From contig NC_135244.1 in assembly GCF_947623445.1 (NCBI RefSeq), forward strand, positions 1,736,001 to 1,800,000: a stretch of 64,000 nt of DNA, in the 5' to 3' direction. Both the position numbers and the translations under genes were made by a program. Within the stretch, counting starts at the first letter, position 1. Each line of letters starts with the position of its first letter. This DNA is from Clavelina lepadiformis. Its lineage: Eukaryota; Chordata; Ascidiacea; Aplousobranchia; Clavelinidae. Shown piece by piece: positions 19,401 through 27,065 of the stretch. The notes beneath the pieces were generated by a model. It was not told the DNA's origin. It saw only the letters and a program-made list of their open reading frames with translations, and did not search any database.

Positions 19401-22400
19401 TCACCCATTGTATTCAAAACTAGGTGGAGTGAAACGGTCAAACGTTGCGCACTGACACTGATGACGAAATGGTTGTTCGACTTCCATATGTTGGATGATG
19501 TCAGAGACGTGACGTGATACGACCTTCACATCTTGCCTTGAGAGTAGTTGGAATAAATTATCACGGCTCTGCATCATACTTGGCCTCTGCGCAGGATCAT
19601 GAGCCCAGCACTTCTTCATTTCATCCTTGAGCAAGTTGATAATTTCAATATCTTCCGGAATCGTGAATTCTCCTTGGACTTCATCCGGATCCGGACGACC
19701 TCCAGATTGTACGGAATTCAGATAAGCTTCACGAATTCGACGGTTGGACGCATTTTCAACCGGTGGTTTTCTTGCCAGCACTGAGCGGAATATCATCGAA
19801 GTACAGAAGATGTCCATGGCCTTCGTAGGACGAGCAGACGGGCTGCTGAGTAGTTCAGGAGCAGCATACAATAACGTGAAGGTGTTTCCGCTGGAACTTC
19901 TGTTCGATGTAAACTCCGTGCAAGTTGCAAAATCTGCTCCTCCAAAATCAGATATTTTGCAGCGGAGGTCAGCTGTGAGTAATATGTTGTCGGGCTTGAG
20001 ATCGCCGTGAGTCATTCTTTGATCCACAGCAAACCCGTGATGCAGGAAAGTCATTCCACTCGCAACATCAGCACAATTCCGAAGTCGAATCACGGCAGGA
20101 ATGGTTGGAATGCAATAAGAATTAGTTTGATTGCAACCTAGAAGAAAACTCTGCAAATTTCCAGCCGGCATAAACTCCAACAAGACGCCCATGGCATCAG
20201 GCCACGTCGTGTATCCTTCAACTCTGACTACATTTACATGACTCGCCTTTGATGCCAACTCAACTTCCTTCATAAACCTACAACAAAAAAGTTCTGCATG
20301 ATATCAAATCAAACTGTCTCACCAATGCACCGTACTTATACTGTTGGTTTAATACTTGTTTTTCATCGTTCCAATCTCAACTCTCGGACCAGTCAAAGAA
20401 AAACACTTGATGGCAACCGCTCCAAGCGAGTCAGTAAAAGCCAAACGAACTTTCCCGTAACCTCCACGACCCAGGAACCCAGATGGTCCAATTACTCCAT
20501 GAATCTTGTTTGAGGGAACTAAGTAAGTGTGCTCCTTCAAAAAATAAGTTTAGTCCAACCTTACTCTAATAAGTTTGCTTCAATCATCAGTGCAATAAAA
20601 TTATTCCTTTAACTTTAAAAATCACCAACCTTTGCAGCTTCATCCATAATCTTCTTGTACTCGTTTATTTTCTGCTTCAATCTTATTACTTCCTAAAAAA
20701 TTCAATTGAAGACTTGATTGATTAAAATCAACTGCTTCATATTAAGAACTTGTCGCATTCACACTTACGACTTCGTCTTTATTGAGTGCTTTAAAAATCT
20801 CTTTTTCTTGCAGAAGATGTCTTTCAAAATCAGCTTTTGCATCTTTCCAAATAACACTTTCTTTATTAATTGGATGCCCTTCCAGTTCTGCACGAGCAGA
20901 AGAAGCAATTTCCTCATGATTTCTTTCAAAATCATCGTCGGCTAACCCCTGACACTTCTAAAATATAACAAAAAATTTTATAACCAACTTCCTGCTTGTA
21001 TGGACTTCACCTTCCACTTACCTCAAACATCTTGGACTTATAAAGATCTTCGGATTTCTTCACTTGCTTTTTAAGCTCCGACAAAAGCTTTAACTGGAAA
21101 GTCCAGAAAATTTGTTTTATGGGATGGCAACGAAGTACGAGCAATTGAGCATAATGTAATCCAGTTTTGCAAATTATAATCAAGTAAACTTTCATCATTT
21201 AAAAATCTATGGTGATTATAAATCTGCACAAATACCTCATCAGATTTTTGTATTTTCTTGAATACTTCAAAATATGAGGAAAGTTTTTCTGTCAACTTGT
21301 TCAAGTTTATTTCATAAAATTCTATGTTTTTCCTTGTTGGTGGACACAACTTGTTGAAGATCGCGATGTGTTTTGTGATGTCAGCACCTTGTGCTTGCTG
21401 GGGTTGTGTCTGCAAATAACATGACTTGATCATTTGATACACACAAAGTGTGTAAGTAAAATATCAACACAGATTAAACACAACACAAAATCACATTAAA
21501 ACATGGACATGAATAAAAAAAAACACCTTTAAATGATGACAGAAATTGACAAGGATAGCATCCGTTATGAAATCATAATATAGAGGTGCTTCGTCCTGAA
21601 AATCGTACAATTGATTAAAAAGGCTTTTTATCGTCTCCTTCAAATAAATAAAGCTTAACTTTATGAATAATAAACACGTTACCAAACCAAAATTAAGCAA
21701 AATTTTGGTTTTTGCCAAACGTGTCTCTAACTTGTTACATCACCAACTCTACCTCATTGATATCGTCTATTTCCTTTATAACATCACAAGATTTCCACTT
21801 ACTATTGAGCAAATCCTGCAAAACATTTCTTGGCAAATGAGCTACACTACCAAGTTGTGCCAACGTAAATATTAAATGCAACGGCTAAGACATATATTCT
21901 AAATATGACATAAAATAACAAATGTATGAACAGTGTTTGAAAAACAAGATTTTCAGTATTAAGTTTCATCTGTAGTGTGAGCACTTGCTTCTCAAAAGCA
22001 TCGTTTATCATCATTGCCATTCATGGCGTCTTACAGCACCTTTCTTCCTTGGCTCTTGGGTGCGAAATTGTGATGACCTGATCATGCTATGATGCAATGA
22101 AAATTACTCACCAAAATTTCCATTTTAGTTTGGTCAACAAAACCTTGCTTTGTCAATGATGTCTCGTCGAACGAAGGGCTCTAAGGATGAAGAATCATGA
22201 TTGTGGGTAACCTAACCTTGATAAAACAACTTCTTAACATATCAGAGTTGACATATAATTTACGACACACGTCATGTTTTGTTCAAGTACATTGAGTCAA
22301 TGATGCAAAAACATGAAGCATCTGATAAAGACAAAAATTTTATAAAAACTGCATCTTCTTTAAGTCTTAGCTGCATTTGGTTTAAAGATACGGCAAATAC

Positions 22401-25400: not shown

Positions 25401-27065
25401 CTTTAGTTTCATAATGAAGTAGCAAAGAAAAAAGATTGATTAGTAAAATTAATCACTTTGCGAACCTAAAAGTTTGCATTTATAAACATTATTGAAAAGT
25501 TGAAAGCCAAATAGACCTAATAAACCTGTATATAGTTTCTGAGGATCCCGATGGTTTTTGAAATCGGTTTTGCCAATACCTCATAAACAAAAAAGATAGA
25601 GAAATTTCGTTTACATTTTCGGAATCAGCGTATCGTTATACTTTTTTACAAAATAGGTTGAAAATGACTTCAGTTCCCCTTTGAGTTAAGTGGCAGACGA
25701 GCCCAATTGCTTGCAGCCCACTTTGCATAAAACATGACGTAAGAGCATAATCATAGCAGGAAAGAGGTTACAAGTAACACTGTAACAAATGTTTAGAGTC
25801 ATCAAGGCGTGACCAACAAGCAAGGTTGGCTTCATCCATTTCTAGTCATAAGAATTGGCCACATTTCTGGAAGAATCGATGAAAATTTATCTGGCAAACA
25901 AGATTTTATGATAAGGCATTGGATAAATCTATGGAAATAAATACTTAGACTAGAAATGTGCAGGAGAAAGACTGAAAAGGTGCACACTTGCCTGGCCATT
26001 GCACACCTGAGTTAGCATGTCTGCACACCTGAGATCTTTGTATTGTTTATTTTTCGCCATTAATTGTGCACAAAGAAAGTTACGATGCAAACCGTTGTAG
26101 TTATAGAACAATAAAACATACATACTCTCTAATAATTAATGAGCAGGAAAAAGTGACAACGCCCAAGGGCTTAAAACATACAAGATAGCAACAATACAAT
26201 TCTGCTTTAAGATGAGGGTTAGTAAATTTATAACAAATATTTCCAAAATGAAACATTTGTCTCACAGTATTGGAGGATGTAGATGGGGAATGTACCTGTT
26301 CATTAAAATCACTGGTATTAACAACCAAAATAAAATATACGAAGTGAAATAGTTTATTTACAGGAACAATGTATATCTGGGCCAAGTGCAGAGGTGCACA
26401 ACCACAGGATGCATTTGTACACTAGACCTCAGTTAGTCAAATTATGACATCATTTAGTTGTGAATTTCTGCACCAGACCTGAATATCTTAAGTGCACAAC
26501 AAATAGATGGTTAAATATACCGACACAAAAAACTCCATCCCAGAGATCAAAATCCAGTTAAGTGGAATATTGTCATTGGGATATAATGCCTCTACATTTC
26601 CTTAAACTAAGGCAAATCCCTAGACCTCGGCAAATTCTGTCAGGAAATACCGACTGAGAAATCGATCATCAGGTTACATGCTAAATTTGTAAAATGCGCG
26701 ATAAGTATAAGATCTTTCGAACAATAACTTTTTAATTTTTGTCTCTCGCACATTCTTACTGGAAAGTTTGCTTTCAGTGAACGAATAAATGCAATGACAA
26801 AATTTGCGACATGTCAACATAACACTTAGGCTATGATATTGAGCAAAACGGCAATTCTCTGGCGCATCATACAAACTTTCCAGTAGGGTCGCACATTACC
26901 GTACAGTTTAGTGCCAAGGCTATACATCTGTAAGAAAAACTCTTTTCTCGAAACTTTTTTGTAGCTGTTAATAATTGGAAGATTGGGTTGTTACAGTACC
27001 TTTAGCTTGATGAGGGATCCTTCTTTTGCTGCGGAAAACACTTCTTGTTTCTTTTTCTCCATCAT
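19401..27065 (-). CDS. FEM1 ankyrin/TPR - coiled-coil - RIPK-like kinase fusion, 15 exons
   Basis: Exons: 27065-27000, 24597-24411, 24260-24068, 23575-23405, 23272-23066, 22857-22669, 22586-22427, 22180-22112, 21637-21527, 21409-21236, 21093-21022, 20957-20769, 20692-20630, 20534-20356, 20277-19401. All have GT-AG borders and compatible phases, total 2907 nt, 968 residues. Residues 1-390 match FEM1 proteins along their length: [52 protein letters not shown], the TPR-like [14 protein letters not shown] and [17 protein letters not shown]. Residues 391-617 are Lys/Glu-rich and largely helical. Residues 618-960 are a protein kinase: GRGGYGKV (about 639-646), AIK with Lys660, HGDLKPDN (767-774), DFG (787-789), AAPELL and HDPAQRPSM. 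It resembles TKL/RIPK kinases and should be active. The FEM1 C-terminal ankyrins and VHL box are not seen. The TGA stop overlaps a perfect GTGAGT donor, so an alternative longer tail is possible. A 39-bp in-frame optional exon may lie at 21841-21803. Confidence 0.85.
24598..26999 (-). other. First intron of the FEM1-kinase gene
   Basis: A 2.4-kb intron between the 22-codon first exon and exon 2. It starts with a GTACTG donor and ends in a pyrimidine-rich TTGTGTATTCAG acceptor. A frame at 26101-26385 and one at 24918-25133 on the other strand have no protein features. No mobile element ends were found, though 25540-25690 and 25950-26050 read like decayed repeats. It is the only long intron of this gene and so the natural place for intronic control elements. 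Confidence 0.55.

Follow-up and report, generated by a model that had tools for sequence, protein, structure and literature searches.

The FEM1K gene

The analysed window, 64,000 nucleotides of Clavelina lepadiformis DNA, carries on its minus strand a gene, here called FEM1K, which joins part of a FEM1 protein to a protein kinase. FEM1K has 16 coding exons between window positions 27065 and 19401 (Table 1), which correspond to C5:1,755,401-1,763,065, and its spliced translation is a single protein of 975 residues. All 15 introns are GT-AG and the frame is open through to the TGA ending at 19401; the start is ambiguous (27065 or 27062, ATGATG). Pfam recognises both ankyrin repeats (best expect value, E, 2.1e-37) and a protein kinase domain (PF00069, E 4.3e-32, residues 644-921) in the chain. 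The translation is identical, letter for letter, to the NCBI prediction LOC143458639 (P0001, Clavelina lepadiformis). This prediction is a second opinion on the gene model, but its sequence is probably not independent and probably derives from the same assembly. An earlier interpretation made from the DNA letters alone (the sequence-only reading) had described fifteen exons with good splice sites and unbroken phase; the splice sites and phase hold, and the exon count is corrected to 16. It had also placed the FEM1 part and the kinase within one gene, with which the identical NCBI model and the two Pfam domains in one chain agree. Its assumption of a tunicate host is correct as well. As a gene model, the FEM1-kinase fusion is nearly certain.

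The FEM1 half

FEM1 proteins are substrate receptors of CUL2 that recognise the ends of proteins and normally direct them to degradation; their C-terminal ankyrins and VHL box bind Elongin and CUL2. Residues 1-391 of FEM1K form a FEM1C-type domain, with the FEM1-type N-terminal ankyrin repeats and tetratricopeptide repeat (TPR) region. The seven introns of this part lie at positions identical to those of the intact Clavelina FEM1C gene (P0123, C2:16.67 Mb). Judged by sequence and introns, residues 1-391 derive from a FEM1C-type gene, and the N-terminal FEM1 part described in the sequence-only reading is present.

The same reading supposed that the ligase-binding half had been lost. No C-terminal ankyrins or VHL box were found in FEM1K by alignment (A1) or by tblastn. 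When the C-termini of two FEM1C proteins were compared with the whole window by tblastn, every match had an E of 0.06 to 0.78 and lay on the opposite strand; since they match nothing in the gene, the ligase half is taken to be gone. The predicted FEM1 fold scores about 90 or higher in the predicted local distance difference test (pLDDT) as far as residue 280, and 73-94 per block on to residue 360. A mixed alignment (A2), in which FEM1 C-termini were aligned onto the kinase, was excluded from folding. Structure prediction, proposed earlier as a check on the fusion, gives the FEM1 fold with these scores and models the kinase half poorly, as discussed below.

The kinase cassette

Residues 517-975 comprise a coiled coil, a kinase and a tail, and match the Clavelina protein P0002 throughout. 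P0002 joins a 435-residue 5' exon without a Pfam domain to the same five-exon cassette, and the exon borders in the two genes are the same or within two residues. This shared layout places the fusion joint, as far as can be told, at intron 11/12. Introns 7 to 14 of FEM1K are all phase 0, which would permit exon shuffling.

The core residues of the kinase are all present (G646-G651 loop, K667, E688, D776, D794 and E825 of the APE motif), so that it is complete, as had been claimed. The catalytic loop reads HGD, not HRD, which makes FEM1K a non-RD kinase. Among solved structures, RIPK1 (E 1.5e-25) and RIPK2 (about 4e-23) match it best. RIPK3, TAK1, EphB4 and RIPK4 come next, close together, and this search does not set RIPK3 or RIPK4 (about 1e-15 to 1e-14) apart from TAK1 or EphB4. 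The earlier assignment to RIPK/TKL-like kinases is retained on the strength of RIPK1 and RIPK2, yet plant kinases lead the database matches outside Clavelina, and for that reason the RIPK label rests on the solved-structure search. Pfam identified no Death or CARD domain in FEM1K; RHIM was not searched for by motif.

Relatives of the kinase cassette in Clavelina

FEM1K shares its kinase, tail and exon layout with a large family of RIPK-like kinases in Clavelina. The kinase exons have at least 119 matches in the genome, including the two exons of FEM1K itself and partial matches. The best 30 (own exon included) start at query residues 54-63, which is the exon 15/16 border. Many of the matches are clustered, on C2, C4, C5, C8 and C9, with tandem clusters at C2 (3.31-3.43 Mb), C4 (22.58-22.64 Mb), C5 (21.82-21.94 Mb) and C9 (14.69-14.75 Mb).

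A few relatives carry other domains ahead of the kinase. P0003, P0004 and P0007 have a GBP GTPase front end; they come from two assemblies and may represent fewer genes. P0008 has two SH3 domains, and P0009 has a TIR-like front end (E 8.4e-4, below the Pfam cut-off). SPRY-like exons lie upstream of two kinase loci on C8; one was tested, from hand-joined pieces, with E 2.4e-4, again below the cut-off, and a SPRY-family search of the genome did not list these two loci. P0008 and P0005 are 84% identical over the coiled coil and kinase and differ at their N-termini, as if a front end had been exchanged recently, unless one gene model is wrong. A further relative, P0241, was found in the protein search from P0009 and has no clear front end. 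The varied front ends hint that this animal has built up intracellular sensors of its own.

The combination of a GBP GTPase with a RIPK-like kinase within a single protein (P0003, P0004 and P0007; C3:2.683-2.692 Mb and C2:2.378-2.383 Mb) is a second unusual fusion in this animal. GBP exons are numerous (101 genome matches), as are TIR-domain exons (77), many of which, several with equal scores, are spread along C4 from 0.7 to 3.4 Mb and C5 from 22.5 to 23.9 Mb. The kinase exon at C4:1228811 is followed 3.6 kb downstream by a Death-domain match (C4:1225079-1229245, minus strand), perhaps a RIPK1-like kinase-Death gene.

The middle segment

Between the two halves lie residues 392-516, encoded by exons 8-11. 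They are predicted to be helical, with low confidence (pLDDT about 40-60), and have no significant match to any known protein. Two origins were considered and rejected. FEM1 homology appeared to extend to about residue 500 (to 504 in a profile alignment and to 496 by phmmer against FEM1B), yet the segment alone scores 0.2 bits against the FEM1 profile, and the best of 20 shuffles scored 0.1 to 0.3 bits. The Foldseek match spans 492 columns of full-length FEM1C, from a model in which this segment was built with FEM1 rows. The segment is not assigned to FEM1 because of its shuffle-level score, its low pLDDT and the FEM1 rows in its model. A remnant of a second kinase in exons 8-10 was indicated by tblastn (E 2e-4 to 4e-3), yet the profile score fell below those of several of 200 shuffles, and one shuffle reached a similar blastp E. 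Residues 392-516 are therefore left unassigned, belonging demonstrably to neither the FEM1 nor the kinase half.

Exons that match nothing known would fit a wrongly joined pair of neighbouring genes, one a shortened FEM1 copy and the other an independent kinase gene. Such a misjoining is very unlikely. The NCBI model joins the halves in the same way, and P0002 joins a different 5' exon to the same cassette. When open intron windows are scored for codon use, exons 8, 9, 10 and 11 rank above 98, 98, 92 and 92% of them; the test is soft, since the accepted exons 4 and 7 rank above 92 and 94%. The tblastn comparison showed no 3' end of a FEM1 gene close by. The stretch from exon 7 to 21311 contains neither AATAAA nor ATTAAA, a weak argument as there is none in the 500 bases past the FEM1K stop either.

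Table 1. Coding exons of FEM1K (window coordinates)
Exon	Position	Strand	Content
1	27000..27065	-	Start ATGATG; FEM1 N-terminus, residues 1-22; intron position as in FEM1C
2	24411..24597	-	FEM1 ankyrin repeats
3	24068..24260	-	FEM1 ankyrin repeats, including 13-residue degron-cup motif
4	23405..23575	-	FEM1 ankyrin repeats; 3 residues, including the Glu191 equivalent, absent
5	23066..23272	-	Final N-terminal ankyrin repeat and initial TPR-region helices
6	22669..22857	-	FEM1 TPR region
7	22427..22586	-	Significant FEM1 similarity stops here (residue 391)
8	22112..22180	-	Spacer, predicted helical
9	21753..21815	-	Spacer, predicted helical
10	21527..21595	-	Spacer, predicted helical
11	21236..21409	-	Spacer; ends at residue 516
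12	21022..21093	-	First exon of kinase cassette; 24 residues (25 in P0002)
13	20769..20957	-	Cassette coiled-coil exon; 63 residues (63 in P0002)
14	20630..20692	-	Cassette coiled-coil exon; 21 residues (25 in P0002)
15	20356..20534	-	Kinase N-lobe: GRGGYG loop, VAIK Lys667; 60 residues (58 in P0002)
16	19401..20277	-	Remaining kinase (Glu688, HGD Asp776, DFG Asp794, APE) and conserved family tail; TGA stop; 292 residues (298 in P0002)

Other open reading frames in the window

By eye, a long frame at 10606-13146 (minus strand) seems to encode numerous LDL-receptor A repeats and, after them, a seven-helix G protein-coupled receptor; a second frame that looks rich in such repeats lies at 16119-16646. 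Two similar neighbouring frames, at 896-2563 and 5857-7461 (minus strand), resemble BTB-Kelch proteins, again by eye.

Proposed function of FEM1K

The favoured explanation, to which about an even chance is given, is that FEM1K works as a sensor kinase whose binding surface is a captured FEM1 domain. A duplicated tunicate FEM1C gene, cut ahead of the C-terminal ankyrins and VHL box, would have supplied the first exon cassette, and the Clavelina-expanded family of RIPK-like non-RD kinases the second, with its five exons for coiled coil and kinase. The FEM1 domain, its specificity shifted from that of FEM1C, would capture a ligand that is probably a peptide or C-terminal tail. The coiled coil would gather copies of FEM1K, and the clustered kinases would activate in trans and then signal; the bound protein would not be ubiquitinated through FEM1K. 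Ligand binding, oligomerisation, kinase activity and signalling are inferred. So is a defence role, from the GBP, TIR-like and SPRY-like partners of the relatives and from the non-RD motif.

The ligand pocket of FEM1 proteins is known. According to PMC10026218, Asp126 of FEM1C binds the C-terminal Arg, a double mutant of Asp77 and Asp126 does not degrade substrate, and a change at Glu191 weakens binding of the Arg degron. PMC11053023 gives the degron contacts of FEM1B as Tyr84, Trp93, Ser122, Arg126, Phe130, Tyr153, Ile160, Tyr163, His185 and Phe193, with a separate upstream (aromatic) pocket; Tyr84 contacts the last residue. Twelve pocket positions were compared: Asp77, Asp126 and Glu191, with the equivalents of nine of the ten FEM1B residues (His185 and the upstream pocket were left out). 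The FEM1B residues were transferred to FEM1C by a constant five-residue shift, presumed from the FEM1B sequence; it makes Glu79 the FEM1C equivalent of Tyr84. FEM1K keeps seven of the twelve (D79, W90, S119, R123, F127, D128 and Y160). D79 and D128 correspond to D77 and D126 of FEM1C, so that both Asp residues which hold the C-terminal Arg are kept. Phe76, the neighbour of Asp77, is replaced by I78; this position and the compared pocket residues are identical across all 30 FEM1C/A rows. Ankyrin 4 keeps 17 of 21 FEM1-invariant columns, with repeat limits set by the author. The contacts to the last residue thus appear mostly kept and the outer walls of the pocket changed, a pattern that is suggestive only.

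Several observations weigh against a working sensor of this kind. Four of the twelve pocket positions are substituted (N81 for Glu79, F150 for His148, L157 for Ile155 and E190 for Asp188), and a three-residue deletion has removed Glu191, which is invariant in the 30 FEM1C/A rows; given these changes, the specificity has probably shifted from that of FEM1C. Pocket retention is no better than that of FEM1-invariant columns overall (103 of 173), and for this reason it is suggestive only. The branch of the FEM1 part has about 3 to 4 changes per site, vs about 0.2 for FEM1C, and may reflect relaxed constraint. Neither with FEM1 nor with the kinase family does the middle segment outscore its shuffled versions. 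The kinase half is poorly modelled (pLDDT 27-85 per 10-residue block). Outside Clavelina its best matches in the protein search come from plant kinases (E 8e-40, 28% identity), and RIPK4 ranks far below them; this search scored only the 7990 candidates that share most words, within limited lengths. Exon-wise searches within 15 kb upstream of the 119 kinase matches, on the same strand, found GBP at 2, TIR at 1 and SPRY at 0, so front ends are identified for few relatives only. TIR exons lie downstream of 2 of the 119.

The kept pocket residues might also mean that FEM1K is, as the sequence-only reading proposed, a kinase directed at C-terminal tails: its FEM1 pocket would have kept the ability to read Arg-type tails, and its kinase would phosphorylate whatever protein is bound there. 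The equivalents of D77 and D126 and five other pocket residues are retained (roles as given in PMC10026218 and PMC11053023), and the kinase core is complete. However, the absent Glu191 is the residue whose change lowers Arg-degron binding according to PMC10026218, the E79, H148, I155 and D188 equivalents are changed, and retention in the pocket does not exceed that at FEM1-invariant columns overall. The GBP and SH3 partners within the family also suggest sensing over a substrate-tail function, and this alternative is considered unlikely.

The family itself bears on another alternative, an integrated decoy: the FEM1 domain would mimic FEM1C that is attacked or hijacked by pathogen proteins, and contact would fire the kinase. 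The family is expanded, with some front ends exchanged; the captured FEM1 copy evolves fast, and the kinase is non-RD. Pathogen proteins that attack tunicate FEM1 are not known to us, though no search for them was made, and this counts against a decoy. In plants, fusions of a kinase with additional domains are reported to act as resistance proteins (PMC10260399 and PMC10260397). On balance a decoy is rather improbable. A further option, beside tail reading or decoy, is that the FEM1 domain may merely dock the kinase. A broader and doubtful proposal is an animal counterpart of the plant integrated-decoy kinases, in which GBP, SPRY-like, SH3, TIR-like and FEM1 modules are shuffled on one coiled-coil kinase, and FEM1K would read C-termini (e.g. 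foreign or cleaved tails) and answer by phosphorylation, not ubiquitin.

In FEM1K a degradation receptor is re-used as a kinase front end, with relatives of both cassettes persisting in the same genome. The known FEM1 peptide pocket and the conserved kinase core make the idea of a sensor kinase directly testable. More widely, FEM1K points to a possible animal system that couples several recognition domains to a single kinase engine, an arrangement known to us mainly from plants.

Comparison with known systems

The sequence-only reading knew of no described FEM1-kinase protein, and none turned up in searches of the open-licence PMC literature, among the entries listed and passages of PMC12373286. 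Among the best 120 of 2038 database matches FEM1K alone carries a kinase domain. Six others among the best 120 of 223 matches fit the FEM1 profile, with 107-228 bits vs 464 for FEM1K; all six are RIPK4-like by name or similarity. In the Clavelina genome, series of FEM1-type exons were seen only at the FEM1K locus, on C2 (FEM1C) and at C7:8.995 Mb, and the genome search with the kinase exons placed no match next to the C2 or the C7 series. That the fusion is seen in one species only, among the matches listed, and that its FEM1 half lies on a very long branch would fit a fusion that arose by chance, serves no purpose and is decaying into a pseudogene. Sixteen open exons with 15 GT-AG introns, a complete kinase core and a FEM1 fold predicted with the high scores given above make this highly improbable.

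FEM1K resembles FEM1C in its N-terminal ankyrins and first TPRs, the identical positions of seven introns and seven of the twelve pocket residues compared. It differs in the absence of the C-terminal ankyrins, the VHL box and Glu191, in the altered outer pocket and in the added kinase. Among solved structures its kinase is closest to RIPK1 and RIPK2. RIPKs are also non-RD kinases, and in FEM1K HGD replaces HRD. In RIPK1 and RIPK2, however, the kinase is N-terminal, whereas that of FEM1K is C-terminal and has no Death or CARD partner according to Pfam. The ankyrins of FEM1K are likewise N-terminal and FEM1-type, unlike the C-terminal partner in the RIPK family; RIPK4 has ankyrins and a kinase in one chain as FEM1K does, but its ankyrins are not FEM1-type. 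ANKK1, TNNI3K and ILK are further ankyrin-kinase proteins whose ankyrins are not FEM1-type. RNase L also brings together ankyrins, as its sensor domain, and a kinase-type domain, and again the ankyrins are not FEM1-type.

Closer at hand, P0002 shares the kinase, tail, coiled-coil exons and exon layout of FEM1K and has another N-terminal part; P0003, P0004 and P0007 (GBP), P0008 (SH3) and P0009 (TIR-like) have the same kinase and tail with other N-termini. No relation to FEM1K is established for the kinase fusion and tandem kinase resistance proteins, whose role is known in plants, but they too combine a kinase with varied extra domains.

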